Of a DNA stretch of 64,000 nt, positions 22,579 to 58,323 are shown in pieces. Positions within the stretch are counted from its first letter, which is position 1; each line of letters starts with the position of its first letter. The DNA lies in contig JAHDFP010000008.1 in NCBI GenBank assembly GCA_020628095.1, positions 62,001 through 126,000 of the forward strand. The letters are read 5' to 3'. Under the pieces are notes generated by a model that was not told the origin of the DNA, made no database searches, and saw nothing but the letters and a program-made list of their open reading frames with translations. This stretch comes from Saprospiraceae bacterium (GTDB lineage Bacteria > Bacteroidota > Bacteroidia > Chitinophagales > Saprospiraceae). Position numbers and translations under genes: made by a program.

Positions 22579-22609
22579 CAAAAGTATGTTAGTGGGAGGG
22601 GTACTTATT
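22579..22609 (-). promoter_or_regulatory. module promoter 1
   Basis: Minus strand: AATAAGTACC (22609-22600), 13 bases, TACTTTTG (22586-22579). The second part is an exact Bacteroidota -7 element (TANNTTTG). It lies 60 bases upstream of the haloperoxidase-like start. The same pair with the same spacing recurs six more times in this window. Confidence 0.75.
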
Positions 22610-22755
22610 TGTGGTGGTGGTTTGTGGGTTATTAGGTGATGGAAGGTTGTGGCTATCTTTTGGAATCCTTTATTAATTAACTCTATTCGTCCTTTACATT
22701 ATCCAATCGAATATTAAGTCTGGTCTTTGTATCTTGCCTTCCAGATAACAAGTAT

Positions 22756-23214
22756 ATGGAAGATAAAAATGAAAAGATTTACCTGCACATGCATAGAGTG
22801 ATGATGGTTCTTAACGAAACTTACCCAGTTTCTAAACTGCCCATGTCTATTGCTTACTTGTTAGAAATTAAAATGAAAAAGACACCAGACTTTATTGAGC
22901 GAATACTTGAAGCAAATGAGATAAGAGAATACTGTGAATACTTTTGCAAGGAGGGCCTCGCCGAACGAACGAATAAAAAAAATGATAAAGAGATTTATGA
23001 ATATAAGCTAACCGTAAAGGGCGTTATATTTATAAACAGAGGAGGATTTAAATGGAAATATCAAAACGATAAATTAGACTTTATGCAGTCTTACAAAGAA
23101 AGAAAAATTGAGTTAGATAAAAATAGAGTTGCAAGAATAATCCCATTACTTGCATGGGTTGTTTCGATTGGACAATTAATAGTCTTTGTTGTAATAAGTA
23201 TAAGTAAAAATTAA
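22756..23214 (+). CDS. hypothetical protein with C-terminal membrane helix
   Basis: 152 residues. Residues 5-100 look like a winged-helix-type domain: helices, then EYKLTVKGVIFINRGG resembling a wing. A C-terminal transmembrane helix spans about 130-149. It is the only plus-strand gene in the 16-55 kb stretch and is AT-rich, like a moron gene. No family recognised. Confidence 0.6.
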   Translation: MEDKNEKIYLHMHRVMMVLNETYPVSKLPMSIAYLLEIKMKKTPDFIERILEANEIREYCEYFCKEGLAERTNKKNDKEIYEYKLTVKGVIFINRGGFKWKYQNDKLDFMQSYKERKIELDKNRVARIIPLLAWVVSIGQLIVFVVISISKN

Positions 23215-23373
23215 ACCAGCAATATTTAAAATTGCGTAGAAAGTTATTAATCCTATTGGCATTTCTAATTTTTTGTATTTGTTTGATAATTAATTTAAAT
23301 CATATTCCAAACATACCTCAAAAGCACAGGTATCTATTTTTGTTCTCTTGAGAAAACCACACTCTTAACCAGA

Positions 23374-24126
23374 TCAACGAATCATTGCAGCAGATCTAAA
23401 ATATTGATGCACTAAATGAAATAACTCCCAGGTCTGCGAGTTAAACAATATTGGCAATGAGGCTTCTAAGTTCTGATTTGAAAGAATTTTTAGTCTTTCA
23501 TTTAATATAAAATGCACAGCGTCATTGAGCGGTCCAATTCCAGAATTTAAGTAATAATCTAAGGCACTGATATAACAAGAAATGCGAGGTAACTATGTCA
23601 TAAGCACGTTATACTTGGTCTGGAACATAGTAAAGAATATATAGTAAAAAGCTGCAACTGGAAATATTGGAAAATCATCCAATTTTTTAAGCTCCAGCCA
23701 CTTAAGATGTTGCTTTTGAATAATTTTCATTGAGTCATCAATGGCGTTAATGCCAGTAATCTTATCTATATCCTCATCAGGATACATCATATCCAGAATT
23801 ATCGAGACACCCACGAAGTACCCAAACTTCGCATTGTATAGGCGCTTTTCCTTTACAGTTAACGCTTCATTTGACCTCATAACAATTGGCTGTAACTTAA
23901 CAATTGTCATTGCCGTAATTGCAGCTATTTTGAACTTATTAATATTCTTAGGAACTAGAGGTCTAACGTATTTTTTCAGAATTTGATAATAAACTCCAGC
24001 TATCTTTAGTGAGGCAGAGTCTATTAACTGGAAGTCTCCATATCGCGAGACGAAATGTGTAATTCCCCTTTCTATTACCTCTGCCCTCTCTTCTATACGA
24101 ACGGACAACTTATCTCCACTTATCAT
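23374..24126 (-). pseudogene. hypothetical gene interrupted by an amber codon
   Basis: The frame from ATG 24126 runs 177 residues to TAG at 23595-23593, then continues in the same frame for 72 protein-like residues (including NSGIGPLNDAVHFILNERLK) to TGA 23376-23374. The continuation has normal composition and helix periodicity and no other gene covers it. So the original product was probably about 250 residues. As with 7278, TAG could derive from CAG by one transition. The protein has amphipathic and hydrophobic helices but no recognised family. Confidence 0.5.
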
Positions 24127-24174
24127 AAGGACAGTATTAAATAGAAGACATTTTGGTATTCGTAAGGATAATGA

Positions 24175-24390
24175 TTAAAGTTCCAAAAGTGCGGAGACAA
24201 AATCCGTTTTACCTCCTGTCAATAGTTTATTATTGTCAGTCGAATCCTCGTGATTTGCCATATTTTGATTTGTAGAAAGCGCATAATCTAAATCTACATC
24301 TAGGTTTATGTCGCTACTCTCTTCTATAAATTCTCTTATGTTATCGTCTAAAATCTGAGCCATTACTTTGTCCTTTATATCCTCATACAA
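24175..24390 (-). CDS. small acidic hypothetical protein
   Basis: 71 residues, strongly acidic (many Asp/Glu/Asn), no membrane segment. It lies 48 bases upstream of the amber-interrupted gene on the same strand and probably shares its transcript. No family recognised. Confidence 0.45.
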   Translation of the reverse strand: MYEDIKDKVMAQILDDNIREFIEESSDINLDVDLDYALSTNQNMANHEDSTDNNKLLTGGKTDFVSALLEL

Positions 24391-25555: not shown

Positions 25556-26542
25556 TCAACACAATTTAAAAAATCTCAATACCCTCTTAAACCAACCATG
25601 CTTCTCATACAAAGCTGGGTGATGCGCTAAGTGATCATCGACCGTATCTGCTGTATTGATAATAGACTGAAAAACTTGTGTCGTCAGTCCTCGGACTTTG
25701 CCGTTGCCATAAGGAATACCGTTAAGTATTTCGGCAGCTTTATAAAGTATGTTGATCGTCACATGATTAGCTGGCACTTCGTTATAGTGCCGCATGTATA
25801 TCTCGATAATCCGTCCACATTCTGCTGCCACCCACGGCGCAGCCATCGACGTACCAGACAGTGATCTCATCAGCTTGGACACCTCGTTACGTAGGTCCCT
25901 CCATCCCGACACGATCTGATCTCCATAAGCCACAATGTCTAATCTCTCATCTCTGGAACTATGACGCCATAGCTTGTCATTCCATGATAACGCACCTGTC
26001 GCCACCACCTCTCTCATACTCGCTGGAAAGGTCAGATTACCACCATTGTTTCCAGCACTACAGACGACGACGCAGTTCTTTTTGTAGGCGTATCTTATCG
26101 CTCTGACGATATGCCGATCTTCACCGCCGCCACCTAATGATAGATTGATTACATGTGCATTATTATCCGCGCAGAAAATAATGGCATCGGCGATGTCCTT
26201 AGTCGAATACGCATTACCTCCTTTGTCCAAGGCTTTAGTAATTATCTGCGATGCGGCTGGCAGTCCAGACAAGACTATACATCTCACATGCGTACCGTGT
26301 CCGTTATAGTCTCTTGTGTCTTTGTCACCAAATGACTTTACCAGAATAGCATTCGGATAATCCACATGCTCTTGATAGCCTGTATCTACTATGCCTATGA
26401 TTATACCACGCCCGACATAGCCCTCTTCGATGGACTTATCCATACCCATTCTATAAAGTGGGTTACGCATGATGTCCTGTGCGCCGATGTCTGGCACTTC
26501 GTCATGCACGATATGTGGCGTTAGTCCGAAATCGTTACTCAT
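25556..26542 (-). CDS. subtilisin-family (S8) serine peptidase
   Basis: 328 residues, no signal peptide. The triad is visible: Asp53 in IVDTG, His82 in NGHGTH, Ser232 in SGTSMAAP, with oxyanion Asn165 in AGNNGG. The usual HVAG after the histidine motif is HVRC. It starts on the base where the amidase gene ends (TAATG). Placed with amidase and holin, it may act in lysis, in maturation of structural proteins, or after release. A short C-terminal helical basic tail is unusual. Confidence 0.88.
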   Translation of the reverse strand: MSNDFGLTPHIVHDEVPDIGAQDIMRNPLYRMGMDKSIEEGYVGRGIIIGIVDTGYQEHVDYPNAILVKSFGDKDTRDYNGHGTHVRCIVLSGLPAASQIITKALDKGGNAYSTKDIADAIIFCADNNAHVINLSLGGGGEDRHIVRAIRYAYKKNCVVVCSAGNNGGNLTFPASMREVVATGALSWNDKLWRHSSRDERLDIVAYGDQIVSGWRDLRNEVSKLMRSLSGTSMAAPWVAAECGRIIEIYMRHYNEVPANHVTINILYKAAEILNGIPYGNGKVRGLTTQVFQSIINTADTVDDHLAHHPALYEKHGWFKRVLRFFKLC

Positions 26543-27024
26543 TAATCCTCTTTAATTTCTGCGCAGTCATCACACCCTGAATATTCTGCTTCTAATTTTT
26601 GAATCAAATGTTTGCCAGGGCAAAGCGTTGCCTTATGCTTCGCATGCCAACTGACTTCTAATGGACCTACGATGTCTATTAGGTCGTCCACAAGGTTTAC
26701 TAATGCCTTCCATTGATCGTCAGGAACTTTATTTTCCTCGAAATTTCCTATCAATGCAACACCTATAGTAGACAGATTTAGTCCAGATGTATTGTAGCTT
26801 ATTACGTCTATCTTGTTGCATCTGAACACCTCACCAATATTGTCGATCATAAAATGATAACCGACCCCAGGCCATTTGTTATTCTTTACATGGTACTTAG
26901 CTATCGCCTTGGGCGTCGCATCACTAACCGTATGATGTACGACGATTCTCTTTATCAGAGATATTTCGCGCAGATTGTATCTTTTGCGCTTATGCTTTGG
27001 CAATATGTCTACTAAGTCGATCAC
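26542..27024 (-). CDS. N-acetylmuramoyl-L-alanine amidase (endolysin-like)
   Basis: 160-residue Amidase_2/PGRP domain like T7 lysozyme. Zinc ligands are visible: first His in VVHHTVSD, second in WHAKHK, and Cys in LCPGKH. The YHFMIDNIGEVF core is typical. It cleaves the amide between muramic acid and L-Ala. No signal peptide, so release needs the holin-like protein 3 bases upstream. Coupled to the S8 peptidase by TAATG. Confidence 0.88.
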   Translation of the reverse strand: MIDLVDILPKHKRKRYNLREISLIKRIVVHHTVSDATPKAIAKYHVKNNKWPGVGYHFMIDNIGEVFRCNKIDVISYNTSGLNLSTIGVALIGNFEENKVPDDQWKALVNLVDDLIDIVGPLEVSWHAKHKATLCPGKHLIQKLEAEYSGCDDCAEIKED

Positions 27025-27027
27025 TAC

Positions 27028-27321
27028 TTACACCTTACTTTTAACCAACTGATACACCGCCAATAATTCCGCTATCACTGCCACGGTAGAATTGGAAATT
27101 TCATTGATAAACTCTGGCGTTATCTCCGTACCTCCTATACTCATCCCGACAAACAAAGCCGCCACCGACATAAAGACGGCGTACCACTTCGAGGATTTGA
27201 TCTGGTCGATGTCTTCTTGATTGGCTTGTGCGGATAGTTTTGGTTTAGCATACAGGCTATAGGCTATTATTGATGCTAAAGCGACTGTAGCCGCGATTAA
27301 AATAATTGCTGATGGTGTCAT
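27028..27321 (-). CDS. holin-like small membrane protein
   Basis: 97 residues with an N-terminal helix (about 4-25), a second (48-64) and a hydrophobic C-terminal segment ending in a basic KSKV tail. Position directly before the amidase gene and size fit a holin; sequence alone does not prove pore formation. Coupled to the upstream gene by TAATG. Confidence 0.6.
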   Translation of the reverse strand: MTPSAIILIAATVALASIIAYSLYAKPKLSAQANQEDIDQIKSSKWYAVFMSVAALFVGMSIGGTEITPEFINEISNSTVAVIAELLAVYQLVKSKV

Positions 27322-27590
27322 TATCTTATTGGATTAAAGTCTAATAAATCAATTTTCTTATCTATACCATTCTCATCTATGAGGATGACATTGTGATACG
27401 TCTGCACAATGCGACGTCTGGTTTCTGTGTCTTTATAAAAGTAAACCGAGTACAAATCACCCGACCGCTTACTACTCGTCTGGCGATACCTCACCCAATC
27501 GAAGTTCTTACCAAAATGATAGGCTTCTGATCCATCGGGTTTGCATAGTGCGCCGTTACTCAGGTTTAGTTTCCATTCTGCTGCTGGCAT
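27321..27590 (-). CDS. small hypothetical protein of the lysis cluster
   Basis: 89 residues, soluble, beta-rich, many arginines and aromatic residues. No signal peptide. It overlaps the holin-like gene by TAATG. Family unknown; could be a lysis regulator or a minor virion protein. Confidence 0.55.
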   Translation of the reverse strand: MPAAEWKLNLSNGALCKPDGSEAYHFGKNFDWVRYRQTSSKRSGDLYSVYFYKDTETRRRIVQTYHNVILIDENGIDKKIDLLDFNPIR

Positions 27591-27594
27591 ATTT

Positions 27595-27966
27595 TTAGTC
27601 TATTTCTATTGGTGTAAATAATTCCCATCCCAACTTCTCATTTATCGACCCTACGCCCTCGTTAAATATCTTTCTTTCCAGAATAGTCAATCTGCTCTTC
27701 CGTATCCACTTAAAGACGCTCTTTCCTATTTTAAGCGGATCAAAGGCTTGCACTCCTATTCCTGATCTCTGCTCTCGCTCATATTCTTTTTTCCATTGCT
27801 CATACAGGAAGTCGTATAAGCCATCCTCTTCTGCTTCTTTTTCTTCTTCGTCTACTTCTGTTACCTTATATATCTTTCCATTGATCTCTATCCACTCAGG
27901 ATTAGTCACCTGGGCAGAAGTGAGGAGTGGGAATAGGAGTATGAGGAGTGTGTGTTTCATTCTCAT
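27595..27966 (-). CDS. small exported protein
   Basis: 123 residues with a Sec signal (LLILLFPLLTSAQ) and an acidic middle (EVDEEEKEAEEDG). The remaining part is helical and basic. It starts by TAATG overlap with a 53-residue gene. In a phage it could be a spanin-like or periplasmic factor, but the sequence does not prove that. Confidence 0.55.
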   Translation of the reverse strand: MRMKHTLLILLFPLLTSAQVTNPEWIEINGKIYKVTEVDEEEKEAEEDGLYDFLYEQWKKEYEREQRSGIGVQAFDPLKIGKSVFKWIRKSRLTILERKIFNEGVGSINEKLGWELFTPIEID

Positions 27967-28127
27967 TATTTTAGTATTCCTAAAAGGTCGCCATCGAGGA
28001 CCACTTTTCCATCCTTGATTATCTGCATTGCCTTTGAGTTTCTTACTTTTTCATTCTTTTCGTGCTTGCACAAAGACTCTAATTTCTCGTAAGCCTCATC
28101 CGATATGTCTACAAATATTCTTTCCAT
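27966..28127 (-). CDS. 53-residue protein
   Basis: Micro-gene of 53 codons, ATG 28127 to TAA 27966. It begins MERIFVDISDEAYEKLESLC and continues with a charged strand/helix pattern ending DGDLLGILK. Both ends are TAATG overlaps with its neighbours, which strongly supports real translation. It resembles a small ribbon-helix-helix or antitoxin-like fold at most; no firm family. Confidence 0.65.
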   Translation of the reverse strand: MERIFVDISDEAYEKLESLCKHEKNEKVRNSKAMQIIKDGKVVLDGDLLGILK

Positions 28128-28324
28128 TATATTCCTAAGTGTTCTGATTTTAAGTCTTGATGTATTCTCCTGATTTTACTCGCTGACATCTTGCAATTTT
28201 CAACTCTACTTAGACCACCTCCTACGTCCCAAGAGTTCATATTTTTAGGATAGTTCCGCTTTACTTCTTCCAAAGTAAGTCCTATTTTATCCGCCAAGTC
28301 TTTCTGTAATGCCTCTAAGCTCAT
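28127..28324 (-). CDS. 65-residue protein
   Basis: Starts at ATG 28324 within an ATGA overlap with the upstream 36-residue gene and ends by TAATG overlap with the next. The sequence is helical with a central NMNSWDVGGGLSRVENCKM segment. A TTG start (28330) is possible and would add two residues. Unknown function. Confidence 0.6.
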   Translation of the reverse strand: MSLEALQKDLADKIGLTLEEVKRNYPKNMNSWDVGGGLSRVENCKMSASKIRRIHQDLKSEHLGI

Positions 28325-28431
28325 ATCCAAAACAATTTCTCCTGCTTACTTTTGATCTCTTCCACATCGCCAGCTTCACTAATAAGTCCGCACCATACTG
28401 TTACAAATAATATTAGTCCCAATAATCCCAT
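28321..28431 (-). CDS. 36-residue membrane peptide
   Basis: ATG 28431 overlaps the stop of the 1127-residue gene (TAATG) and its own TGA overlaps the next ATG (ATGA). One hydrophobic helix (GLLGLILFVTVWCGLI) is followed by a charged tail. The double overlap supports translation. It may assist lysis or anchor a partner. Confidence 0.55.
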   Translation of the reverse strand: MGLLGLILFVTVWCGLISEAGDVEEIKSKQEKLFWI

Positions 28432-31400
28432 TATGGCGTATTACAGTCTGAGCAAAATCTTACAAACTGACTCATATTAGCCAGCATATTCTCACCACCT
28501 GTACCCGTCGCCGTTGCGGGGCTATAATCTCTATCCAAAGTCACTCTATTGAAATCACCGACCCACGTATATGTACCAGAATTAGAGCTACTGGAATCCG
28601 TTATACAAGATTTGAAATATCCGTTCCACGTAAATCCACCGTCAGGCGTCGTCCAATCTAAGATGTCAGATGGAGAACCAGCACAGCCAGCCAATCCACT
28701 ATATACGGGCGGAGTAGGTTGCGCCACGTCAAAGGTGATAATGACTGGATACTTATTGACCGCCCTTATTTTGAATAAGTTCTGAGGCGTCGAGGTGTCA
28801 CCCCATGACTGTTGAGCGCAATTATCTATTTCCAGTACAGGATACGTATAGTCTATAGTCATATCCCCTGGGTTACCAAGTGTGTACAGGTTGAGGTTTC
28901 CAGCCACAAGCGGACTGCCTGGGAAAGGTTGCTGCCACGCGGCGGCATTAGTACTCGTTACTGATAGACTGCCAGGCGTTACGACGGATACCGTATAATT
29001 AGCTCCTATCGCTGGTATCGCGCTAAAGTCTGTACAATTAGTCACCACATGCTGTAATCCATCAAACACCAGCGCATCAGGCAAGCAATTGGCATTCTGC
29101 GACCAATCCGATCTAATTTCATTCACTACCTCGCCAGCACTACATCCAGCAGGGATAAGCTCACTCGGATCGTCGTCTCCATCGTCATCAGGTACATCAT
29201 CTCCATTATCATCTTGCTCCGCACTATCTCCATTGCCGTCGTCATCTGAGAGGTCACTGACAGCTTGTCCATATTCGTCGACAGCATCCACTTGCATACT
29301 ACAGACGATAGATTCTTGGTCTACATCTGCCTGTACTACCGTGTAGATGCCTGTATAGGTCGCGCACTCTCCTACCAGCAATTCACCATTAGGACTACCC
29401 ATTGTAGAGCTTACAAAAGTCCATGTCGTCGGTGCTGTTCCGTTCATTGTGGAAGAAGCGACAGAGAAATTATCTGCACCACTCGCTATATCATTGGTTG
29501 TGCTTGTATTACACACTTCCAGATTGATAGTCACATCTCCCAGCGCAAGCGTACCAGCTATGTTTTTGTTTAGTTCTATCTCTGGTGGTGGCACTCGGAA
29601 TATATGCTCACTACATGCCGTCTCGCTTTCGATGACATTGCCATCAGGGTCTACACAATCCAGTCTATAGTCTATACAGCCTCTCTTTTCTCCATTCGCA
29701 TCATAATCCGTTCCCGTATAAGTTATATTGATCTCGCCATTGACTACACCTAATATGGTCGCATCTGGCACTGTCGTACATCCATCCGCACAGCCATTAT
29801 TGCATTCATATAGTGGGTGCGGAAAGGTCGTTATATCATTGCCATTGCAATCTATCAGAGTGAGTACTTGAGTCGAGTTACTACAGGCATCATTAACCAG
29901 CAAATTTTCTGTACAATTAGGCGGACTCGCAGCCCAGCACTCGTTAGAATCATCGTTAGCGACGATGCAGCCAGATGTATTCAGTATAATATATGCAATA
30001 CCACAAGGCCCGACATAAGGGACTGATTGCTGGCTACAATTATTCAGTTGTGGCGTGTAGGTCCACGCACACGGCGTTCCTGTTAGTGTTCCAAATACCA
30101 AGGTAGGTGGCGTACTTGTCGCATCGCCATTCGCATCTATCCAGCTATAATTAGCGCAGTCCTGATCGCTACAGGTCACATCATCTATCACACTATTACC
30201 AGAGATTGGCGTATCATTAGGTGTGTACCAAGTGTCATTGAGCGGGCTTCCTTCTACCACATTGATCGTCATAGTACAGGTCTGGTCACAGGCTATGCCA
30301 CCACAGGCCAAAGAGTAAGTCGCATCTATTTCCCCAGCAACGCCAGGGATAAACTGTACATAACCACCACCTATATCTGTTGCTGTACTCGGAGGGGTTG
30401 TGGGCGTTACCACATCTATTATAATAGACGGCGTCGTACCATCCGTACACATTAGATCATCATTCTCTAAGGGTCTGAAAGTCGCTGTCGTCCCTAAAAT
30501 CGTCACATATAGATCATCAGTACAACTGAGCGCACAATCTGGAAAGTCTATCGTCACTACAGATTCGCTTTCTGTACCGTCCTCACAAGTTGCAGCAAAG
30601 CTAAATACTATATCTTGCGCTACCGCACAGGTCTCTTCATCTGGACATATTGCAAATAAAGAACCGCCTGTACTATAGACTATCGCATCCGCCGTAGGAA
30701 TAGAAGTCAGCGCGTAGTCGGTTTCTAAGATATTACCAAATTGATCTTCACACGGCGTCGTATAGTCTGCTAAGTCAATAGTAAAGCACTCACAATCCAA
30801 TCGCGTCGAGTCCACATTTTCCGTACTCACCGTTATCTCATATTCTGGCTCTTTGCATGTCTCAAATTCTACCTCACAATCCCCAGACTGATCGCATAAG
30901 TACTGTGTTATATTGATCTGACCATTAGCCAAGGTATCATTCTCATAATAAGTATATGTGAAGGTCGTATCTCCATCGTCGGCATGATAAGTATATATCG
31001 TATCTCCGACCGTTACTATCCATTCGCCCCATACGTCATAACTTGTAAAGAAGGTATCTTGTGCATTGCCATTTACATAAGTAATGGTATATGTAGAATC
31101 ATTGCTTGCATACTGCGAATGCGTTATTTCAATACTGTCAATGACGCACTCTTTTAGAAAATCCAAAGGAAACTCTGTTGTTGTCGTGTCTACAGGTTCG
31201 CCATTATTGTCGGTTATGTAATTATAAATGACAATGCTGCTATCTCCAACGACGCCTATTGCTAAAGAGTCACACTTATAAGTATCGGTATCATTAAAAT
31301 CATAGGTGTCCCCCAGGTATTCTATAACCAAAGAATCCAGATTATCGACATTAGTAAATTCCTGAATAACCAAAGACGTATCCAAACAAGAAAGAATAAA

Positions 31401-31814: not shown

Positions 31815-31831
31815 TTGTTATTCCTTCTATC

Positions 31832-31873
31832 ACCTTAAGCGGATGCCTAATCAAAGGCTATCCGCTTTAAGGT
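31832..31873 (-). repeat. long intercistronic hairpin
   Basis: ACCTTAAGCGGAT-GCCT pairs with AGGC-ATCCGCTTTAAGGT (one bulge each side) around a 6-base loop, about 17 bp in total. It lies between the 362-residue gene and the 1127-residue gene. No T-tract, so probable mRNA processing or stabilising element, or partial attenuator. Confidence 0.6.
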
Positions 31874-31895
31874 TAGTGAGCATCCAAAATGTGTT

Positions 31896-32984: not shown

Positions 32985-33316
32985 TTATTGTATACTATTT
33001 CTATGGAAAAACTAAAACCAGAATAGGTGCAATCGCCATCTTGGAACTCAATCAATGCGCCTGTAGAATCATAGATTTCCAAAGTCGTTTCATTGCATTC
33101 GTTAAGGCAGTCTGTATTAAAACAGAAATTGTCTCCTTGATTAAAAAATTTCTTTTGTTTCAACTTGCCACCGATGATCTTATACTGAAAAATGTATTCC
33201 GCCGAATCGGGAGCTAATAAGTCGAGACAAACTTCCTCGCAATGCCCATAACAGCCCAAAGGAAACTTTGGACTTTTATTGTTAACAACTTTGCACGGGT
33301 CTGTACAGATAGGCAT
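32981..33316 (-). CDS. 111-residue cysteine-rich protein
   Basis: First gene behind the promoter at 33321-33351, whose -7 element ends four bases before this ATG, so the mRNA is probably leaderless. The protein has ten or so cysteines, no signal, and begins MPICTDPCKVV. A similar start pattern (Cys-rich N-terminus, ICTDPC-like) occurs inside 20446-21753 (ICTRPCG). Function unknown. Confidence 0.55.
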   Translation of the reverse strand: MPICTDPCKVVNNKSPKFPLGCYGHCEEVCLDLLAPDSAEYIFQYKIIGGKLKQKKFFNQGDNFCFNTDCLNECNETTLEIYDSTGALIEFQDGDCTYSGFSFSIEIVYNK

Positions 33317-33320
33317 GACC

Positions 33321-33351
33321 CAAAATTATAATGGTAAGAATGGTACTTATT
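33321..33351 (-). promoter_or_regulatory. module promoter 2
   Basis: Minus strand: AATAAGTACC (33351-33342), 13 bases, TAATTTTG (33328-33321), then four bases to the ATG at 33316. The transcription start would fall on or beside the start codon. Confidence 0.75.
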
Positions 33352-48156: not shown

Positions 48157-48162
48157 GGTGGT

Positions 48163-50895
48163 TTAGTTTTTGATTCGCGTCTGACTAGTGGTCTCTACCA
48201 AAGTACATGAGCAACAATCATTATTGACCCTAACTCCAAATTGCTGATTGGTTAGACTACCATCTGGACATTCGATATCCGTTCTATAAGTTAGAAATTG
48301 TAGACGTTCCCCACAATCCGTACTTGCGATAATATCCATACTCTGAGTACCCGCATTCCATGACATAGAAAATGTGCTTCCACCTGGGCATTGCGATAAT
48401 ATACAGGCTTCCGTCTCCGAAATCATGTTGGATAAAGTTTCTACACAACAATTGCTCGATGGTTGACCACCTGGTGTCTGTGGAGGACAAGACGCAAAAT
48501 TATGAAGAACTACATCTTCTCCACAAGTTGGGTGACAACCCCCAGCACAGGCAGGCGTAGTCCCAATGGATAATCCCCAAGCTGATGTACTATTACCACC
48601 ACTGCAAGCCTGCCAGCTTACAGCCGCAATATTTAATATATCGTGTGTATTCCATAATGAACTAAAATCGACCGAATATTCACATTGATATTGCAATCTT
48701 ACCGTATTACTCACTTGAGTACCACAAGAAGCACTAAATAGAACCAACCTATAGTAGCCTTCACTTGCCGTAACAGAACCAGAAACTGGTGCCGTACCAG
48801 TAGCTAATGTGGACCATCCGACACCTGTCAGAGAATATTGTAATTGGTAGGTATAGTTAGAGCAACCACCACCCAGTGCCGAGTAATCTATCTCGCAGTC
48901 AATATCATCATAGACAACCGATGGCGTACACGTACAGTCTATACAGTCCAAGCACTCACAAGACGCCGTCCTAACTCCACAAGTCCCAGAACTATCTCGT
49001 ATACGTACTAAGAAACATCCACTATCTCCGTTAGTTGGACAACTATTATTAGGCACAGTATAAGACCCTGCCCCACTGATAGGTATCGTATTAATAAATC
49101 CGCCGCACGTCGATGCGTTAAAACATCCAGTAGTATTATCCCACTTGCTATAATCTAAAATATTATAATTGCCGCAGTCTGGACCTGAGACAATCGCAGT
49201 CATCGTACAACTGGTATTATCCGCAACAAGGCTGACAGAACAATTACAAGATACAGGCGCACACAAGGTCGTCATATAACTTGCCGTCAAGGTCTGGCAG
49301 CATCCTGTAACGGTGACGCTATAAGTTTGGTTTTGAGTGGCAGTGATAGACGAGGTCGTTGCTCCTGTCGACCATAAGTAGGAAGGTGTCCCTCCACAAT
49401 TATTCACGATGGCATTAAGCTGACAAGTCGGACTCTCTGTTATCGTCACCGAAGCATTACAAGGCGTACAACCACTGACCAGCTCACAATCCGTTGCCGT
49501 GCAATTATTAGCATCGGTAATCGTTACGCAGTAGACACCATCCACTGTGACATTGATAATCTGACCACTTGATCCATTGGACCAATTGTAAGATAGAGGA
49601 TTTTGCAGACCTGATGAGGTTGCGATGAGTTGGCAATTATTATTGACAATAGTCGCCGTGCCGCTGCAACAATTCGCTGTAAAGGTGGCACTCTGATAAT
49701 CACAATCTGGATTAAAATTAGTACAGGTCGTGGCATTATACCATCTTGTGATCGTCGTTACACAACCCGCAGGAAATCCTGACCACACCCAAGTATAACC
49801 TATCGTACAATTACCATTAATAGTAATGCCACCAGGTGGGCAACTTGTACAGCCCGTAATAGAAAAACAATTACTGCCTGTACATCCGTTAGCATCGGTC
49901 ACCGTAACACAGTATGTGCCATCCGATGTGGCAGTAATGGTCTGCGTCGTCGCTCCTATATCCCAATTATAACTAAAAGGTGCCGTCCCTGTTCCACTTT
50001 GGACAAAAGCCGATAAGTCACATCCACTAGGAAATATATTGACGACCATATTAGAGGGGTCATTGCCGACATTGGCCGTACAGGTCTCCGCACAGTTGTT
50101 AGCATCCGTCACTGTGACTGTATAACTACCCGCACCGAGATTAGTGATGACCTGTGTCGTTGCCCCGTTAGACCAATTGTAGGAATAAGGGATCTGGCCT
50201 CCTGACGCGTTGACTGTTGCGCTGCCCTGACCGTTTCCACATGCCTCATTAGTAGCAGTACATAGTGCTTGTATATTGGGACAATTACAATCATCAATAA
50301 ACTCCCAATAGACTCTGGACTGACATCCATTGGAGTTGACATACACTCCCAAAAAAGTAACCGTTCCCACTCCTCCATTTGCAGCAATGTTATAGTTAAA
50401 GAAATAGTTTGTAGAAACAACCGTATTGGTATTCAAATTAGTCCAAGTCCAGTTTCCAACGGGAGTGCCTACTACTGTAATAACACCAACGTCATCCGTA
50501 CAATAAGTCACAGAACAATCAGGATCCGTCATCGCTGGCCCAAAGTTAAATCTATAGGCACAACCTAATACAGTCGTATCTAATGGATTGATCGTAAAAG
50601 TAGAAACGACCGTACAGCCTTTGTCATCAGTCGTAGTAACGGCGTAAGTACCTGGCGCATCTGTATCTAACGTCGGCGTATTATCTCCTGTAGACCAAGC
50701 ATAAGATAATCCCGAGCCAGATACGTCAGGGTCTAAAGTCGCCGTCTGCAACTCGTCCAGACATATATCACAAGTAGCCGATCCCAAGACCTGATAATTA
50801 TCTGACTCTTTGGATTTTGCTTTCTTCTTATCGTCTATACACGTACCGATCCCTGATAGAATCAGCAGACCTAATATGACATAAAACCACTTCAT
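48163..50895 (-). CDS. SprB-repeat exported protein
   Basis: 910 residues. N-terminal hydrophobic signal (YVILGLLILSGIGTC). At least five SprB-type repeats are visible, each with YxWSNGATTQ and xYTVTVTDANNC, at roughly residues 45-105, 205-270, 275-345, 405-470 and 480-540. SprB is the gliding adhesin of flavobacteria. The C-terminus lacks a T9SS sorting domain and ends in a cysteine-rich segment. It may be a tail-fibre-type adhesin or a surface protein. Coupled to the 181-residue gene by TAATG. Confidence 0.65.
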   Translation of the reverse strand: MKWFYVILGLLILSGIGTCIDDKKKAKSKESDNYQVLGSATCDICLDELQTATLDPDVSGSGLSYAWSTGDNTPTLDTDAPGTYAVTTTDDKGCTVVSTFTINPLDTTVLGCAYRFNFGPAMTDPDCSVTYCTDDVGVITVVGTPVGNWTWTNLNTNTVVSTNYFFNYNIAANGGVGTVTFLGVYVNSNGCQSRVYWEFIDDCNCPNIQALCTATNEACGNGQGSATVNASGGQIPYSYNWSNGATTQVITNLGAGSYTVTVTDANNCAETCTANVGNDPSNMVVNIFPSGCDLSAFVQSGTGTAPFSYNWDIGATTQTITATSDGTYCVTVTDANGCTGSNCFSITGCTSCPPGGITINGNCTIGYTWVWSGFPAGCVTTITRWYNATTCTNFNPDCDYQSATFTANCCSGTATIVNNNCQLIATSSGLQNPLSYNWSNGSSGQIINVTVDGVYCVTITDANNCTATDCELVSGCTPCNASVTITESPTCQLNAIVNNCGGTPSYLWSTGATTSSITATQNQTYSVTVTGCCQTLTASYMTTLCAPVSCNCSVSLVADNTSCTMTAIVSGPDCGNYNILDYSKWDNTTGCFNASTCGGFINTIPISGAGSYTVPNNSCPTNGDSGCFLVRIRDSSGTCGVRTASCECLDCIDCTCTPSVVYDDIDCEIDYSALGGGCSNYTYQLQYSLTGVGWSTLATGTAPVSGSVTASEGYYRLVLFSASCGTQVSNTVRLQYQCEYSVDFSSLWNTHDILNIAAVSWQACSGGNSTSAWGLSIGTTPACAGGCHPTCGEDVVLHNFASCPPQTPGGQPSSNCCVETLSNMISETEACILSQCPGGSTFSMSWNAGTQSMDIIASTDCGERLQFLTYRTDIECPDGSLTNQQFGVRVNNDCCSCTLVETTSQTRIKN

Positions 50896-51440
50896 TAATT
50901 AACCGTACACGTCGGATTATCTATCAAGGCAGGTGGATCAGTCAGCGTTACAGAACAGTCACCTGTGCATCCATTAGCATCAGTAACTGTAACAGAATAC
51001 GTCCCTGCTGAAAGCCCCGTGATCGTCGCTGTATTACCCCCATTATCCCAGCTATAGGTATAAGGTCCTGTACCTCCCGAAGGCGTCACTGTAGCATCCC
51101 CATCGCTATCTCCAGCACAACTGGGGTCATTACCTGCACAGCTTGCCATAATAGCCGAACTGCTGCCTACGGTAAATGTATGTATGATCTCACAGCCATT
51201 TGCATCGGTACATGTCGAGGTATAAGTGCCTGCCGCTGTCACCGAGATCGTCTGTGTATTATCTCCTGTAGACCAGGCATAGGTAATCGTTCCTGATCCA
51301 CCAGAACAGGCCGCATCTAATGTGACCATCTGTCCAGGACAAATGTCACATGTCGTCTGAGAATATGCAGCACTCGCCATCATTATGACCAGCGCTACAT
51401 TAACCAACCTGAGAATGTTATTCGATTCAATTATTTTCAT
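50895..51440 (-). CDS. short SprB-repeat exported protein
   Basis: 181 residues: Sec signal (VALVIMMASAAYSQ), then two SprB-type repeats (TYAWSTGDNTQTISV and TYSWDNGGNTATITG). It ends soon after the second repeat, so it is mostly repeat. Likely partner or shorter version of the 910-residue protein that follows. Confidence 0.65.
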   Translation of the reverse strand: MKIIESNNILRLVNVALVIMMASAAYSQTTCDICPGQMVTLDAACSGGSGTITYAWSTGDNTQTISVTAAGTYTSTCTDANGCEIIHTFTVGSSSAIMASCAGNDPSCAGDSDGDATVTPSGGTGPYTYSWDNGGNTATITGLSAGTYSVTVTDANGCTGDCSVTLTDPPALIDNPTCTVN

Positions 51441-51456
51441 CTTACTTATTTATTTA

Positions 51457-51852
51457 TTATTCGTTACATGTAGGATTATTGACTAAGCAACATTTGACAT
51501 AATACACAGATGTCGTATCGTAGCAATTTTCGCAATCAGGACTTTGTACGATATACCAAAACTCATAAAGACCATCTTCGCCTTCACAGATCATCTCCTC
51601 ATCATCAAAGCAACCCGTATTAGGGTCAAGGTTTACATTACTTCCATTTGGTTGATAACCGATCTGATACGTTCCACCTGCGTCTGCGCCAGTTATATGA
51701 TCGCCGACGCACTCTATAGACAAGGCACGTACGTCATCATCATCACAAATCAATATCGGATTATCCTTAGAGCCACTCACAGATTCTTTAGTCGTTACTC
51801 TGATCGTATGGCAGGATGATAACAGCAATATGATAATTATGGCTATTCTCAT
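51457..51852 (-). CDS. small lipoprotein
   Basis: 131 residues with a lipoprotein signal (IILLLSSC, cysteine near 14). The mature part has an acidic stretch and ends with several cysteines (SPDCENCYDTT and KCCLVNNPTC). Starts by ATGA overlap with the 996-residue gene. Unknown function. Confidence 0.6.
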   Translation of the reverse strand: MRIAIIIILLLSSCHTIRVTTKESVSGSKDNPILICDDDDVRALSIECVGDHITGADAGGTYQIGYQPNGSNVNLDPNTGCFDDEEMICEGEDGLYEFWYIVQSPDCENCYDTTSVYYVKCCLVNNPTCNE

Positions 51853-54839
51853 TGTTTGACTATTGGATTGGTTTGTGCATTGCCCATACCAGCTTCTGGT
51901 TTGGTAAATACATATTGGGTGTCTATCTGAGGGCAGCCGTCCTTAGTCGCTTTAGCAGTATAGGTATCTGACACAGTGGCCTCGTAAGATGGGCCTGTCC
52001 CGAGCTCTACCCCATTAGAATCACACCACACAAAAGAATAACCCGGCGCATCTGCCGTTACAGTGAGCGTACATTGATCGCAAGTTATCATTAGGACGTC
52101 CGTACACTCCTCATTATCATCACAGCACGCATCCACATTGATAACTGGATTAAACTCTATCACTGGCTCGACCACTATATCCCCTATGAAGCTCGGTTTT
52201 ATATAGCAGCCTTTGGTCAATACTTTGATCTCGCAAGGGTTGCCGTTATTATCGACGACTTGTATGCACCATTGTAAGACTAATTGCCCTTGACCATATA
52301 TCGGCGCACCCTCCCATGTGGCGAATGGTGACCCGTCTATCGAAAAGGATTTTTCGTCTTTGATAAGTGCTGTTCCATCACCATTGAATACGGGAGTAAA
52401 TAAGCAATTCTCCTCATCTACCTGACAATCGATACTATATCCAGAATAATCGCAAGACGAAGGATCGGTCGCTTTGGTAACCGTAAATATGGTCTTAGCC
52501 ACATCGACATCGGGGCAACCATCATCGAAAATAACATTAGACCAATAGCATACAGAGTCGCCGTCTTGTACGGTCAAAGGATTAGGTAGAGTATCGCCGT
52601 TCTGTAAGTCGTACTCTGTGGTAGTTCCGTTGATCCTGATCCAGACCTTATCTCCTATTTTGTTAGAATCAAAATTATCTGTTACAGCAAACGTGACATC
52701 GCAATCATTGATTGTATGAGTTAGAGTCCGTGAATTGACACATGGTGTACTGATCGGACACTCGATAACATCGTGAATAATAAGATCGCTACATCCATTA
52801 CCAAAAGTTATCTCACGGCTTATAGTGCATTTTATAACATTACCATTGCTGTCGGTGGTTTCTGTTTTTATATCGCCCGTATCACTTTCGACTGGACTTA
52901 AAAGATTGACAACCGTCTCGCATTTGGTGATACCATTATCTCCACATTCCCAATCGACGTAGCCCGTGTTGGTGTCTGTGCAAGGCTCTTCTTCTTCGCA
53001 GTCGCAATCAGGATCTTCTATCTCCGAGGCATTATCCAGATAGCTGACATCCGTACTATTACAATCACTTTTGACGGCGACGGTCGGATCTGTTATAAGT
53101 GTGCTGGGTTGGTCTCCTGCATTATTATTGAATTGCGTTTCTGTAGCGACATTATAGACCTCATACCACGCATTCATATCTCCTGGGAATCTCGGTATCA
53201 AAATCGTTTGTCCGATAATATCCGCATAGAGACAAACCACGCGATCATTGAGCGCGCCATTGGTATCGTAATCAGCGCATTCTCGGACAAAGAAATACTT
53301 CCTTTCTACAGGAATAGGCGGACACTCACAATCATTCTCCTCCTCCTCTGGCGTACCATTACATACCGCTTTCACACATTGTATCCCTTCACAATTCAGC
53401 AGCGATGCATTCAATTCGTTAGTTGCGCCCATGGACACGTAAGGTCCATATCCTTCGCTGAGGAAAACCTCACAACCACTTTCTCCAAAATCAAAACTCA
53501 AAGTCCCACCGTCCTCACAACAATAAACCTCCGTCACCTCTTCATTATCCAATGCAAAGGCAGGTACAACATTTAGAGTACTAATAAAATTAGTCCTTAC
53601 GGGAACACATAGCGATTGTCCAAAACTGAAATAAAAACAAAAATTACTAAAGCTATCCCCTAACCTCTCATCAGCATTGAACGAATAACAAAATTCTAAG
53701 TCATCATTAATCACTAACTGATAGCTAAAACCCGTCGTCACGGCCGCGCTAGAACCAGAAAACAACAAGGCTTGATCCAGATAATCTTCTACTGGATTAT
53801 TATAACCTTTATCGGCTAGGGCAGCTTCTATCACAGCACGATTGAGCTTAACACACACATCCACGTTACCACAAGAAGCCAATCCGCTAACACAACAATT
53901 TTCGAAAGTATTACCCAAGGCATCTGTGACATAACAGTCTATCATATCCTCAGTAAAGGCCAATATCTTAACCTGCGCCTCACATATCAAAGGACTAAGA
54001 CAAGACTTCCATTCTGAGCCTTCGCGATAAACAACATAGACACTATACTTACCACCCGCTTGTAGACAACTAGAGGACAGAGTCATACAGGCCTTTGAGT
54101 CTATGCCATCGTTAGTAAAGCCTGCTCCTTCCGTAATACAGGCTGCATTTATGACCGTACCATCATGCGCTGTAATCTGACCGACTCCATTATTTATCTG
54201 TACATAGTTGAGATTACTATCTGCTGGAAAAGCCAATACATTAGACAAAGAATTTTCCTGAAAATAGCCTGCATAGATAGTGTTGCTTAGATTAGTGCCT
54301 GTACTGGAAATATTTATCTTGAGGTCTTCTCCTAGACAAAATCCACCATCAATTCCAAGATCAAAAAACAGTTCGTTTTGGCAAAATGCATTGTACTCTA
54401 CCGGGTGCGCACATAAGGCCGTACTACCATCGACTTCCAACCAAAAATTAAGATAACCGCTACCGCCATTACCAAAAAGATTATAATTGTTATAAGCCGC
54501 ATCTGAAATATACCCGCCAAGATCACCCCAAAAGAAAAACTCAAAACATATAATAAAGTTACGGCTATCAATCGCCTCTATCGTGGCTACAAAATTCCTA
54601 TTGACTGCCGTACCGACGAAAGCCATCGGTGTGACTGTGCCAGAGCTAGGATAGGTGGCGACAAATTGGTTGGAAGTATTAGACGGAAGGTCTGTAGGAC
54701 TCTGAGAAAAGAGAGAAGGAATAAAATTAATGACTTCGCCAGTCAAATCTTCTGTAGACGAAATCTGACAACACGCCTTAGCGAGTTGCCCTGTTGTGCC
54801 TACTATAGGAAGCGCGGAAGATGCTACAGATAACGCCAT
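51849..54839 (-). CDS. 996-residue cysteine-rich protein
   Basis: First gene of the 55-47 kb operon. I place the start at ATG 54839; an upstream TTG (54848) would lie within the -7 promoter box. It has more than 60 cysteines, many as CDC, CC or CxxC, and several repeated beta domains (for example CTLTVTADAPGYSFVWCDSN and the similar SprB-like end). No classical signal. Could be a long fibre or tip protein. Unknown family. Confidence 0.6.
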   Translation of the reverse strand: MALSVASSALPIVGTTGQLAKACCQISSTEDLTGEVINFIPSLFSQSPTDLPSNTSNQFVATYPSSGTVTPMAFVGTAVNRNFVATIEAIDSRNFIICFEFFFWGDLGGYISDAAYNNYNLFGNGGSGYLNFWLEVDGSTALCAHPVEYNAFCQNELFFDLGIDGGFCLGEDLKINISSTGTNLSNTIYAGYFQENSLSNVLAFPADSNLNYVQINNGVGQITAHDGTVINAACITEGAGFTNDGIDSKACMTLSSSCLQAGGKYSVYVVYREGSEWKSCLSPLICEAQVKILAFTEDMIDCYVTDALGNTFENCCVSGLASCGNVDVCVKLNRAVIEAALADKGYNNPVEDYLDQALLFSGSSAAVTTGFSYQLVINDDLEFCYSFNADERLGDSFSNFCFYFSFGQSLCVPVRTNFISTLNVVPAFALDNEEVTEVYCCEDGGTLSFDFGESGCEVFLSEGYGPYVSMGATNELNASLLNCEGIQCVKAVCNGTPEEEENDCECPPIPVERKYFFVRECADYDTNGALNDRVVCLYADIIGQTILIPRFPGDMNAWYEVYNVATETQFNNNAGDQPSTLITDPTVAVKSDCNSTDVSYLDNASEIEDPDCDCEEEEPCTDTNTGYVDWECGDNGITKCETVVNLLSPVESDTGDIKTETTDSNGNVIKCTISREITFGNGCSDLIIHDVIECPISTPCVNSRTLTHTINDCDVTFAVTDNFDSNKIGDKVWIRINGTTTEYDLQNGDTLPNPLTVQDGDSVCYWSNVIFDDGCPDVDVAKTIFTVTKATDPSSCDYSGYSIDCQVDEENCLFTPVFNGDGTALIKDEKSFSIDGSPFATWEGAPIYGQGQLVLQWCIQVVDNNGNPCEIKVLTKGCYIKPSFIGDIVVEPVIEFNPVINVDACCDDNEECTDVLMITCDQCTLTVTADAPGYSFVWCDSNGVELGTGPSYEATVSDTYTAKATKDGCPQIDTQYVFTKPEAGMGNAQTNPIVKQ

Positions 54840-54845: not shown

Positions 54846-54877
54846 CAAAGATACATTCAGTGCAAGAGGTACTTATT
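54846..54877 (-). promoter_or_regulatory. module promoter 6
   Basis: Minus strand: AATAAGTACC (54877-54868), 14 bases, TATCTTTG (54853-54846), six bases before ATG 54839, so the mRNA is probably leaderless. Confidence 0.75.
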
Positions 54878-56105: not shown

Positions 56106-56155
56106 ATAACCTATCCAGATAGTAATTGAGTAATTAGGGGTGGGTTATTTTTTTG
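56106..56155 (+). terminator. terminator of the trypsin-like gene
   Basis: AATAACCTATCC (56106-56117) pairs with GGGTGGGTTATT (56139-56150) with wobble pairs, followed by a T-run of seven. Plus strand. Confidence 0.7.
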
Positions 56156-56168
56156 TTTTGCAATTCTT

Positions 56169-56927
56169 CTAGGTTGTCTCTACTAATTCCTTTTGGCCAT
56201 AGTGTAATAATTGCTTAACCAAATGATGCACCGTTGTACACGGGGCTTTGAGATGTGGACTCAGCTGTTGATCAAATTGAGCTTCTAATATTTCAGCTCT
56301 TTCGATTGCGACTCTTGTGTTTTTTACAACTTCTGGCCTTACCACGTTTATAAATTTCTTCCTGCTCTTGAGGGAACTTTTATAATAAAATTTCTCATGA
56401 CTTAGGGCTTTCTGCAACTCTTCATTCGGCTCTTCAATACGTTTAAAAACTTCCGTCAGCCTGTCATAATAATATGATCTATGTTTAGCCTCTTCTCTAA
56501 GTTCTACATCTTCAAAGTGTAGCAAAATCCATAGCTCAAAAGAATCGTTGCTCCAAGCCACGTTTATACCTCTGGCATGTGCCGTTCTTATAGATTCATC
56601 AAATGAGGTATCACCTGCTTTGATTCGATCTTCATTTTCTTCCTTATCTCTGTCATATACACACCAGACAAAAAAATCATCCATTTTGATCTTAGATTCA
56701 TGGTTTTTTTTGTCTAAAAAATCATGATCTTGACAATGTCTAATAGCACTATTCACATTATCAGATTTACTTTTTTGATTCTCTATCACATTAACCTTTA
56801 TCTCCTCTGTTTCGAAGTATCTGAAATAAATAGGCTCACTACTTTCGTCCTCACAAAAAATAATGAACGTTACCCTGCTATCAAAGTCTCTCTCAGAATC
56901 CGTTCTTTTCTTCCAAGGCTCTGACAT
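56169..56927 (-). CDS. RloB family protein (AbiLii-like)
   Basis: 252 residues. The N-terminus FIIFCEDESSEPIYFRYF carries the conserved acidic residues of the RloB Toprim-like domain; WCVYDRDKEEN and NVAWSNDSFELWILLHF follow, both standard for RloB. It sits one base after the AAA ATPase gene. RloA/RloB pairs are equivalent to the AbiL abortive-infection system of Lactococcus. Probable RNA or DNA nuclease partner. Confidence 0.85.
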   Translation of the reverse strand: MSEPWKKRTDSERDFDSRVTFIIFCEDESSEPIYFRYFETEEIKVNVIENQKSKSDNVNSAIRHCQDHDFLDKKNHESKIKMDDFFVWCVYDRDKEENEDRIKAGDTSFDESIRTAHARGINVAWSNDSFELWILLHFEDVELREEAKHRSYYYDRLTEVFKRIEEPNEELQKALSHEKFYYKSSLKSRKKFINVVRPEVVKNTRVAIERAEILEAQFDQQLSPHLKAPCTTVHHLVKQLLHYGQKELVETT

Positions 56928-58205
56928 CTACTTTTCTTCTGTGATAAAACGATGTAATACTGGAACTGCACCATAATAGCCCGCAAGATAATGCTTGGCA
57001 AAATCCGCATTATTTCTGACTCCCTTTAGATCTGATAGAGCGTATAACTTGGTAGATTCTGTTTCTGTTTTTTCTGTAAAATAAAACTGATCTCTTCGCA
57101 TGATAGTGGGAGACATTAGGTTGGTATCATGGCTACTGAACAGTAATTGCGAATTGGTTTTGTTAATACTAGGATCATTAAATGATTCAATTAGTTTTCT
57201 GAGAAGCGCTGGATGGAAATTGCTATCAATTTCATCTATCGCAATAAATCTTGAGACAAATGAGTTATCAAAAATACTCAAAAGGAAACCAGCTAGATTA
57301 AATAACTTTTGGGTACCTTTTGATTCATTCGTCTTAAGGTTTAAGTTCAAGACATTAGAAGAATTATTACTAGTGAAAACTCTCTTTTTGAAATTAATTT
57401 TTTCCGCGGGAACAAGGTAATCTAATTCATCCTTGTCAAATTTGATTTCGATGTCATCATATTGTAAATTAAATGAAGCTAAAAACTTTAGAAAAGTATC
57501 TTTGTTTTTTCTCAAGATATTCCATACAGATACAGCCCTATAATACGGAATCTTGTCATCTCTAAAAAACTTCAACTTTGCCGAAAGAAAATTTCTTACA
57601 ACTGTGCATTCGCCACTATTACTAAAAGCAGCAGCATGAGTTAAAAAAAGGGAATGAGAATATGGAATAGGAGGAACTGTAGCCGAATCAGATAAAGAAT
57701 TAACTTTCAAAACATTGCCTATTCTAACAAAAACTTCCCTACTATTTTTTTCTTTAGTGCCATACAACCATTCACTGGTAATAACCTCATTACTATACTG
57801 ATCTATCAGATTTTCTCCAGTCTCTGGATTTTTTTTCAGAGTAATTCCATACCTATACTTCTTCCCATCAATTAATAAAACAATCTGAAAGTAGGCATCT
57901 GTTTTTTCGGGAGATTCTTGATACAAAAAAGGCTGGCAGGCATCGGAAAGATTGGACTTGGGACTAGGATCTCTTTTAACTATATTAATAAATTCTTCGA
58001 ACGCCTTTAATATATTACTCTTACCACTCGCATTAGCACCATAGATACCGACTGTCTTCAATAGTCTATGCCCTCCTACTTCTACAATATTATTCTTATC
58101 TACATCAGCGTTGTCATCACTACTTTTTAGGCCTGTAGCTACAAAACTGATCGTTTGCATCTCATTAATAGACCTGAAATTAGCGACACTAAATTCTACA
58201 AGCAT
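56928..58205 (-). CDS. AAA ATPase of the RloA/AbiLi type
   Basis: 425 residues from ATG 58205 (MLVEFSVANF; an ATG at 58283 adds a hydrophobic stretch I consider non-coding). Walker A GANASGKSN lies at about residues 56-64; Walker B-like FIAIDEIDSNFHP and SSHDTN follow. SMC-like AAA_21/AAA_15 ATPase. Together with RloB it forms an AbiL-type anti-phage pair. The upstream region carries the module promoter at 58292-58323. Confidence 0.85.
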   Translation of the reverse strand: MLVEFSVANFRSINEMQTISFVATGLKSSDDNADVDKNNIVEVGGHRLLKTVGIYGANASGKSNILKAFEEFINIVKRDPSPKSNLSDACQPFLYQESPEKTDAYFQIVLLIDGKKYRYGITLKKNPETGENLIDQYSNEVITSEWLYGTKEKNSREVFVRIGNVLKVNSLSDSATVPPIPYSHSLFLTHAAAFSNSGECTVVRNFLSAKLKFFRDDKIPYYRAVSVWNILRKNKDTFLKFLASFNLQYDDIEIKFDKDELDYLVPAEKINFKKRVFTSNNSSNVLNLNLKTNESKGTQKLFNLAGFLLSIFDNSFVSRFIAIDEIDSNFHPALLRKLIESFNDPSINKTNSQLLFSSHDTNLMSPTIMRRDQFYFTEKTETESTKLYALSDLKGVRNNADFAKHYLAGYYGAVPVLHRFITEEK

Positions 58206-58291
58206 GTTTTCCTGTTGCTTTATTTGTACAAATATTAGAAGTAAGAAGTGCAATAATCGCACCTTTTTTAAGATTATTTGCACGAATAATG

Positions 58292-58323
58292 CAAATATGC
58301 TCTAAATTGTTCAGGTACTTGTT
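58292..58323 (-). promoter_or_regulatory. module promoter 7
   Basis: Minus strand: AACAAGTACC (58323-58314), 14 bases, CATATTTG (58299-58292; one mismatch to TANNTTTG), 86 bases upstream of the AAA ATPase ATG. Confidence 0.6.

Follow-up and report, generated by a model that had tools for sequence, protein, structure and literature searches.

Eight near-identical bipartite sites as candidate activator-dependent promoters of a prophage-derived element in a Saprospiraceae bacterium

Does the sequence AAYAAGTACC, followed after 13 or 14 bases by TANNTTTG, mark a single set of promoters in the genome of a Saprospiraceae bacterium, and if so, whose genes would it serve? The question is raised by a stretch of 64,000 nucleotides (the window), which corresponds to C9:62001-126000, C9 being contig JAHDFP010000008.1 of assembly G000 (GCA_020628095.1; 4,216,564 bp, 33 contigs). 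Here the bipartite sequence recurs on the minus strand in front of phage-like genes and of an RloA/RloB gene pair, in a region that looks like a broken Saprospiraceae prophage. The strict pattern is defined as AAYAAGTACC, a spacer of 13-14 bases and TANNTTTG, both parts exact; coordinates given without a contig name are those of the window. Our whole account of promoters and regulation is read from sequence. It suggests that eight such sites are coordinated, activator-dependent promoters which are used by the host primary sigma factor and serve the structural, presumably late, genes of a prophage-derived element, and we put the probability of this reading at about 0.68.

Eight sites within 54 kb of one contig

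An earlier note on this DNA had reported seven copies on the minus strand of the window. This holds, and more strongly than it was put there. All seven are present, five with a spacer of 13 and two with a spacer of 14 bases; an eighth, at C9:138295-138325, lies outside the window. The strict scan of the whole genome gave seven matches, all on the minus strand of contig C9 (C9:84579-138325, 54 kb), six of them inside the window and the seventh, the one just named, 12.3 kb beyond its right end. The reversed pattern, run as a control on the whole genome, gave no match. Once the imperfect site in front of RloA/RloB (58292-58323), which is one base off the strict pattern, is added, the set comprises eight sites, with a spacer of 13 bases in six and of 14 in two. 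The AAYAAGTACC box is identical in all eight except at the Y position, and the -7 box is an exact TAnnTTTG in seven and CATATTTG in one. Taken alone, the AAYAAGTACC box has 32 copies in the genome versus 27 for the reversed control and is at background level elsewhere; these 32 are the eight sites, one copy at 3066-3075 that has no -7 box, and 23 copies on other contigs.

The genome scan against controls that the earlier note had proposed bore the pattern out, since the seven strict matches compare with none for the reversed pattern and none in 200 dinucleotide shuffles of C9:84001-139000. On the minus strand of this region AAGTACC was found at a common offset (+/-1) from seven of the 30 TANNTTTG sequences; in the shuffles the best common 7-mer was shared by at most three sites. 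Because every k-mer was searched, at offsets from 8 to 49 bases, the test is independent of the motif choice made in that note. In 400 kb of the host contig C5, none of the 36 TANNTTTG sites that lie upstream of genes has AAGTACC. A weight matrix scored the eight sites at 25.3-30.6 bits, and the next best sequence in 557 kb (the 157 kb of C9 plus C5:1-400000, both strands) reached 15.6 bits; as the matrix was built from the same eight sites, it is the gap between the scores that is informative. Beyond the boxes, agreement is limited to weak columns, in which no more than 6 or 7 of 8 sites concur. With flanks so little conserved, the sites do not represent copies of some longer repeat. A degenerate ninth candidate, AATAGATACC N13 TATGTTTG, lies in an intergenic position at 23338 on the minus strand; its 13.4 bits are within the background range.

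Since no strict site was found outside these 54 kb of one contig, the set is private to one mobile element and a host-wide regulon is ruled out. The dispersed regulon of the earlier note thus holds as a shared set, with a narrower reach than that term implies. The grouping of the sites before phage-module genes and RloA/RloB into one set is also upheld, the RloA/RloB site, with its imperfect -7 box and 82-nt leader, being the weakest. In a set of 99 further genomes, which included 13 from the same genus, a search with spacing 12-15 gave one match in each of four genomes versus five matches in four genomes for the reversed control.

The set was also sought in relatives of the element. The best relatives of its portal-position protein (44095-46353) are encoded on two phage-like contigs, G860:C7 (67.9 kb) and G509:C30 (43.6 kb; CAKZUK010000030.1, uncultured Saprospiraceae). 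When up to two mismatches in all and a spacing of 12-15 were allowed, these G860 and G509 contigs, the G777 and G334 contigs and the G947 stretch yielded no site, and exact AAYAAGTACC is absent from the Polaribacter phages P12002L and P12002S. In the relatives, 6-mers upstream of TANNTTTG were common to three sites at most, which lies inside the range obtained with 60 shuffles per relative (G334 had too few TANNTTTG sites for this test); in P12002L/S the best common 6-mer, counted without shuffles, also covered three sites. As far as sampled, the system appears to be private to this element. A scan of viral_contigs for AATAAGTACC N13 TANNTTTG returned 34 stretches with one match each, which we regard as background; 25 window proteins gave no tblastn match to these 34 stretches at E 0.01. 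The G860 contig carries a repeated element of its own, a palindrome (by eye) of the form AGTTTGC-N6-GAACTAT, with variation, at 5026, 10928, 12552, 16099 and 19362. It sits over the -33 position of TANNTTTG sites, and all five places are outside the structural cluster.

Geometry of the putative promoters and the proposed activator

Transcription starts (+1) were predicted from the numbering described for Flavobacterium psychrophilum, in which the -7 box spans -12 to -5 (PMC9723704). AAYAAGTACC then spans -35 to -26 in the six sites with a 13-base spacer and -36 to -27 in the two with a 14-base spacer. It lies over the -33 element and not just inside it, where the earlier note had placed it. 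As that note had seen, the first half is not the usual TTTG, the position near -33 being taken by AAYAAG in 8/8 sites, and its equation of the second half with the Bacteroidota -7 element agrees with the exact consensus in 7/8. The box is asymmetric and has no dyad; symmetry is limited to the core GTAC. An ATG is located downstream of all eight sites, at 0, 1, 2, 13, 18, 44, 56 and 82 nt from the predicted +1, and three of the eight would be leaderless or almost so; for F. psychrophilum, 5.5% of mRNAs are given as leaderless (PMC9723704). The -7 box TAnnTTTG and the start codon shortly downstream are shared with promoters of the Bacteroidota primary sigma factor (sigma-ABfr/sigma-A), which differ in that TTTG holds the -33 place occupied here by AAYAAGTACC. 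TANNTTTG is also found 4-5 nt ahead of an ATG at two places in G860 and four in G509, as in three of the eight sites here, and leaderless transcripts may be common in the group formed by G860, G509 and this element.

Our inference is threefold: the sites act as promoters, there is an activator, and its effect is positive. The -7 box would be read by region 2 of the primary sigma factor in the host RNA polymerase; as the box is that of the primary sigma factor, this region probably functions in the normal way. The usual -33 contact would be replaced by the 10-bp asymmetric AAYAAGTACC, bound by an element-specific activator. Without this activator the structural units, and probably RloA/RloB too, would be silent, and with it they would be switched on together. 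The earlier note had proposed a dedicated sigma factor or activator. A dedicated upstream box is indeed present, and an activator is the likelier reader, given that 7/8 sites keep the -7 sequence of the primary sigma factor.

That note had seen no regulator gene in the window and had suggested that it may lie elsewhere, which is possible: the nearest clear candidate is encoded 12 kb past the window, in the unit of site 1. It is a protein of 59 amino acids (aa; C9:138110-138289) with an excisionase-type HTH_17 domain (PF12728, 8.4e-13), and to call it the activator is a guess. It had no match at E 1 in the open reading frames (ORFs) of six relative contigs or stretches that lack the set, which fits weakly with the absence of the box there, and a PDB sequence search with it gave nothing at E 0.1. 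Pfam and NCBIfam scans of 49 ORFs of the element gave the best 25 of 38 and the best 25 of 46 families, further families being weaker than 1.2e-3 and 7.6e-5, respectively. No sigma-factor family is among the matches listed for these 49 ORFs, nor for further ORFs scanned, and no MotA or AsiA family is among those listed for the 49 (Pfam, NCBIfam), a search that divergent proteins could escape.

A comparable arrangement is described for the middle promoters of phage T4 (MotA/AsiA sigma appropriation), where MotA boxes take over the role of the -35 contact. They are 12 +/- 1 bp away from -10 and, at a distance of 13 bp, occupy -35 to -26 (PMC2988021). The likeness, which is one of sequence level only, is that a 10-bp box replaces the -35/-33 contact and the primary -10/-7 element is kept. 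The geometry is equal in six of the eight sites (13 bp); the other two, at 14 bp, are one beyond the T4 range as given there. In contrast to T4, the box sequence is unrelated, the sigma factor is a Bacteroidota one with TAnnTTTG, structural genes are served, and the box is almost invariant, whereas T4 boxes are said to tolerate deviation (PMC2988021). The resemblance is thus one of working geometry, not of membership.

Activator-dependent late promoters of temperate phages are known from P2 (Ogr) and Mu (C). As in those systems, one activator would serve several structural operons of one element; the sequence and position of the sites differ, and the activator here is only proposed. Listings of open-licence papers showed no activator-box promoters described for phages of Bacteroidota, which is weak evidence of absence, and listings on AAGTACC, AbiL in prophages, Saprospiraceae phages and sigma appropriation gave nothing on an AAYAAGTACC box. 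The sites would be a further form of phage-specific activator-box promoters, a kind already known. A further-reaching idea is that a Bacteroidota phage lineage evolved its own sigma appropriation, in which a non-T4 activator takes over the unusual primary sigma factor at the 10-bp box in the -33 place, and that the RloA/RloB (AbiL) pair was wired to this box. An activator encoded by the element, or by a related phage during infection, would then turn on defence together with the particle genes; we consider this rather unlikely. The eight near-identical sites provide a ready assay for finding the activator and for probing how the divergent Bacteroidota primary sigma factor might be redirected.

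Weighing the explanations

Several observations speak against activator-dependent promoters of an element's structural genes. The set was not found in the relatives examined and is therefore without comparative conservation; single sites on the G792 contig (one mismatch) and on the G1000 stretch (two mismatches, spacing 15) are unexplained and may be due to chance. The loss of TTTG does not by itself prove activator dependence because the -33 motif is not always identifiable in the phylum (PMC7366714), and in the host sites on C5 TTTG is located 18-19 bases upstream in just 4 of 36. The HTH_17 protein, the only clear DNA-binding one, is of a common type and is a candidate by position. At the AbiL pair the box is exact and the -7 box imperfect (CATATTTG), the predicted RloA leader (58206-58287, 82 nt) is more stable than 200 of 200 shuffles (z -3.06), and a second -7 box with one mismatch (AATATTTG) can be seen by eye inside this leader. 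Profiles for the terminase and the tape measure protein (two rows each, from G509 and G860) gave no match in the whole genome, in searches run without a positive control, and therefore the genes may no longer make particles.

Four other explanations were considered. An alternative sigma factor, either of the extracytoplasmic function (ECF) type or phage-encoded, could use the box as its -33 element, with region 4 reading AAYAAGTACC and region 2 the TAnnTTTG-like box. The box does take the place of the -33 element at a near-fixed spacing, and eight alternative sigma factors are reported for F. psychrophilum (PMC9723704). The full primary-sigma consensus at -7 in seven of the eight sites and the lack of a sigma family among the matches listed for the scanned ORFs make this improbable; in addition, the ECF-type motif given for F. 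psychrophilum has CGT in its -10 region (PMC9723704) and not TAnnTTTG as here, and further strict sites, which one would expect for an ECF factor of the host, are absent from the genome. We regard it as improbable to a similar degree that the box is the operator of a prophage repressor, which would cover -33 in primary-sigma promoters of the ordinary kind and so silence the element. A repressor bound there would block the polymerase, promoters might work without a -33 element (F. johnsoniae, PMC7366714), and the related G860 contig carries its repeated operator-like element at the same position. The G860 element, however, is palindromic by eye and lies outside the structural cluster at its five places, whereas AAYAAGTACC has no dyad beyond the GTAC core; this asymmetry makes a dyad operator unlikely, and the spacing of 13-14 bp to the -7 box in all eight sites suits an activator or a sigma factor better.

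A more substantial alternative, still on the doubtful side, is that the sites are dead relics, the activator having been lost with the early region while the promoters have not yet decayed. It is compatible with activator-dependent promoters and overlaps with them. It would account for the lack of TerL and tape measure matches genome-wide and for a start-less C-terminus of a phage gene on the minus strand at C9:125709-126050. It also fits with cargo genes in two places of the element and with the early-region ORFs of G860 and G509, none of which matches C9 at E 1e-3. On the other side, the eight boxes are identical but for Y and the structural ORFs listed are still open; therefore either the loss, if any, happened recently or selection still acts on the set. 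What speaks for chance, or for a dispersed repeat that is no promoter (binding, replication or packaging sites), is that the AAYAAGTACC box alone is at background level in the remaining genome. The whole-genome scan and the shuffles refute chance, and the gap between 25.3-30.6 and 15.6 bits, the single orientation, the near-fixed spacing to the -7 box, the start codon downstream of every site and the scant conservation of the flanks leave this explanation with a negligible probability.

Genes under the sites and the element that carries them

All sites and the genes assigned to them are on the minus strand. The ORF downstream of each site is our assignment, and the extents of the units (operons) are inferred from gene order only. 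Site 1 (C9:138295-138325, strict, outside the window) heads a unit at C9:138.3 kb that consists of the HTH_17 gene (59 aa), genes for 178, 116 and 102 aa and a short gene.

Site 2 (58292-58323; AACAAGTACC N14 CATATTTG) precedes RloA/RloB (56169-58205, ATG of RloA at 58205) and is the weakest of the set, with 25.3 bits and a predicted leader of 82 nt. RloA corresponds to AbiLi (Pfam AAA_21, 1.5e-25; PADLOC AbiLi, 5.9e-82) and RloB to AbiLii (PADLOC, 5.8e-26); Pfam RloB matched one member of the 49-ORF scan. As in AbiL systems, both proteins fit the PADLOC models and are adjacent, an AbiLi ATPase next to its AbiLii/RloB partner. The difference is that this pair is preceded by a copy of the box found at the structural genes of the element. 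The pair likely belongs to the set, of which it is the least certain member. If it truly does, a prophage would tie an abortive-infection system to the switch of its own structural genes. The structured RloA leader is a possible attenuator or sensor.

Site 3 (54846-54877; AATAAGTACC N14 TATCTTTG) has its predicted +1 two nt ahead of the ATG at 54839 and precedes genes for proteins of 996, 131, 181, 910 and 291 aa (47281-54839), the first and the last of which have homologs in G860:C7. The 131-aa protein is lipoprotein-like by eye. PKD in the 910-aa protein is below the cut-off, and SprB, matched by one member of the scan, is placed on the 181-aa protein by inference. The 910- and 181-aa proteins (48163-51440) thus combine a place in the phage module with PKD/SprB-type repeats as in gliding adhesins; similar repeats are also present in G1000, and they possibly represent mimicry of the host surface.

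Site 4 (47230-47260; AATAAGTACC N13 TATCTTTG; predicted leader 13 nt) precedes genes for 70 aa, 224 aa and the portal-position protein of 752 aa (44095-47212); the latter two have homologs in G509 and G860. Between the portal and head genes lies cargo without a box of its own (38976-43711): amine oxidase, acyltransferase 3, TrpF-like and DUF6624/TPR. The first three were matched by one scan member each and their placement on ORFs is by inference. In G860 and G509 the gene next after the portal is a related one, of 305 and 283 aa. Site 5 (38911-38941; AACAAGTACC N13 TATTTTTG; predicted leader 44 nt) precedes a 114-aa gene (38518-38862) with a Rho_N-like stretch below the cut-off, which takes the place in gene order of a 110-aa gene of G860 without a sequence match. 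Site 6 (38508-38538; AATAAGTACC N13 TACTTTTG; predicted leader 18 nt) overlaps with its box (38529-38538) the 3′ end of this gene, which ends at 38518, and precedes genes for the scaffold-position protein of 295 aa, the capsid-position protein of 393 aa and proteins of 307, 152, 155 and 167 aa (33353-38485); those of 393, 307, 152 and 167 aa match G860. Site 7 (33321-33351; AATAAGTACC N13 TAATTTTG) would give a leaderless transcript, its +1 being predicted on the first base of the ATG at 33316; genes for 111, 362 and 1127 aa, small genes, an amidase and a subtilase follow (25556-33316). Site 8 (22579-22609; AATAAGTACC N13 TACTTTTG; predicted leader 56 nt) precedes a PAP2-like 253-aa gene (PAP2 below the Pfam cut-off) and two tail-like genes for 435 and 392 aa (19280-22518). 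The 435-aa gene matches a 1417-aa protein of G509 (E 1e-20), out of order with respect to the other matches. At gathering thresholds the window had no Rfam match.

The phage kinship of the element rests on its portal and head gene block. Relatives of the portal-position protein were found in 2, 2, 9 and 4 genomes in draws of 395, 298, 396 and 388 (own genome included); these four draws overlap, and their queries and limits differ. Altogether, eight genes are colinear with G860: the portal and seven others (996, 291, 224, 393, 307, 152 and 167 aa; 20-35% identity), and G509 has four of them in the same order. Families on the G509 contig include integrase, Terminase_3, TMP_3 and amidase. The portal of G509 is a weak match (E 1e-3) to the annotated portals of P12002L/S, which neither the window protein nor the G860 portal matched. 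Cargo aside, the order portal, small gene, protein of about 290 aa and capsid-position protein is that of gp14-gp17 of P12002L. In these phages (Incheonvirus) the run shared with the element reads portal, small gene, gene for about 270 aa and virion structural protein; they differ from the element in having an annotated terminase and tape measure and no exact AAYAAGTACC. The 393-aa protein is named capsid from its position only; its structure model has a mean pLDDT (predicted local distance difference test) of 33 and was not used. Pattern-based searches of viral_contigs and genome_contigs yielded no relatives of the portal- and capsid-position proteins except the G509 contig, and PDB sequence searches with profiles of both gave nothing at E 0.1.

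The terminase and tape measure proteins of G509 and G860 do match each other, and a non-homologous terminase in the element is possible. A gene-transfer agent is not favoured, as no terminase was found. The G509 integrase had no match on C9 at E 1e-3. The start-less relic at C9:125709-126050 corresponds to the C-terminus of the gene that precedes the 845-aa gene in G860, and C9:120.4-136.3 kb is filled by plus-strand genes, among them a Septu-like PtuA/PtuB pair (C9:133548-136282) inside the apparently broken prophage. The interior of the element thus holds defence and host-like genes.

The right flank is chromosomal, as the DNA of C9:140001-156952 matches all 13 other genomes of the same genus that were searched. 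Beside the right end of the element, C9:140999-144055 encodes a 1018-aa protein with LRR, Roc and COR-A and a weak TIR stretch below the Pfam cut-off. Patatin-like genes flank it on both sides, and the group resembles a cluster for defence or signalling. Dispersed short repeats with identities of up to 93% or more are located at L015:9715-9942, 5888-6583 and 16126-16880 (L015:999-4055 being C9:140999-144055); they have many copies on several contigs of the genome and in some genomes of the same genus.

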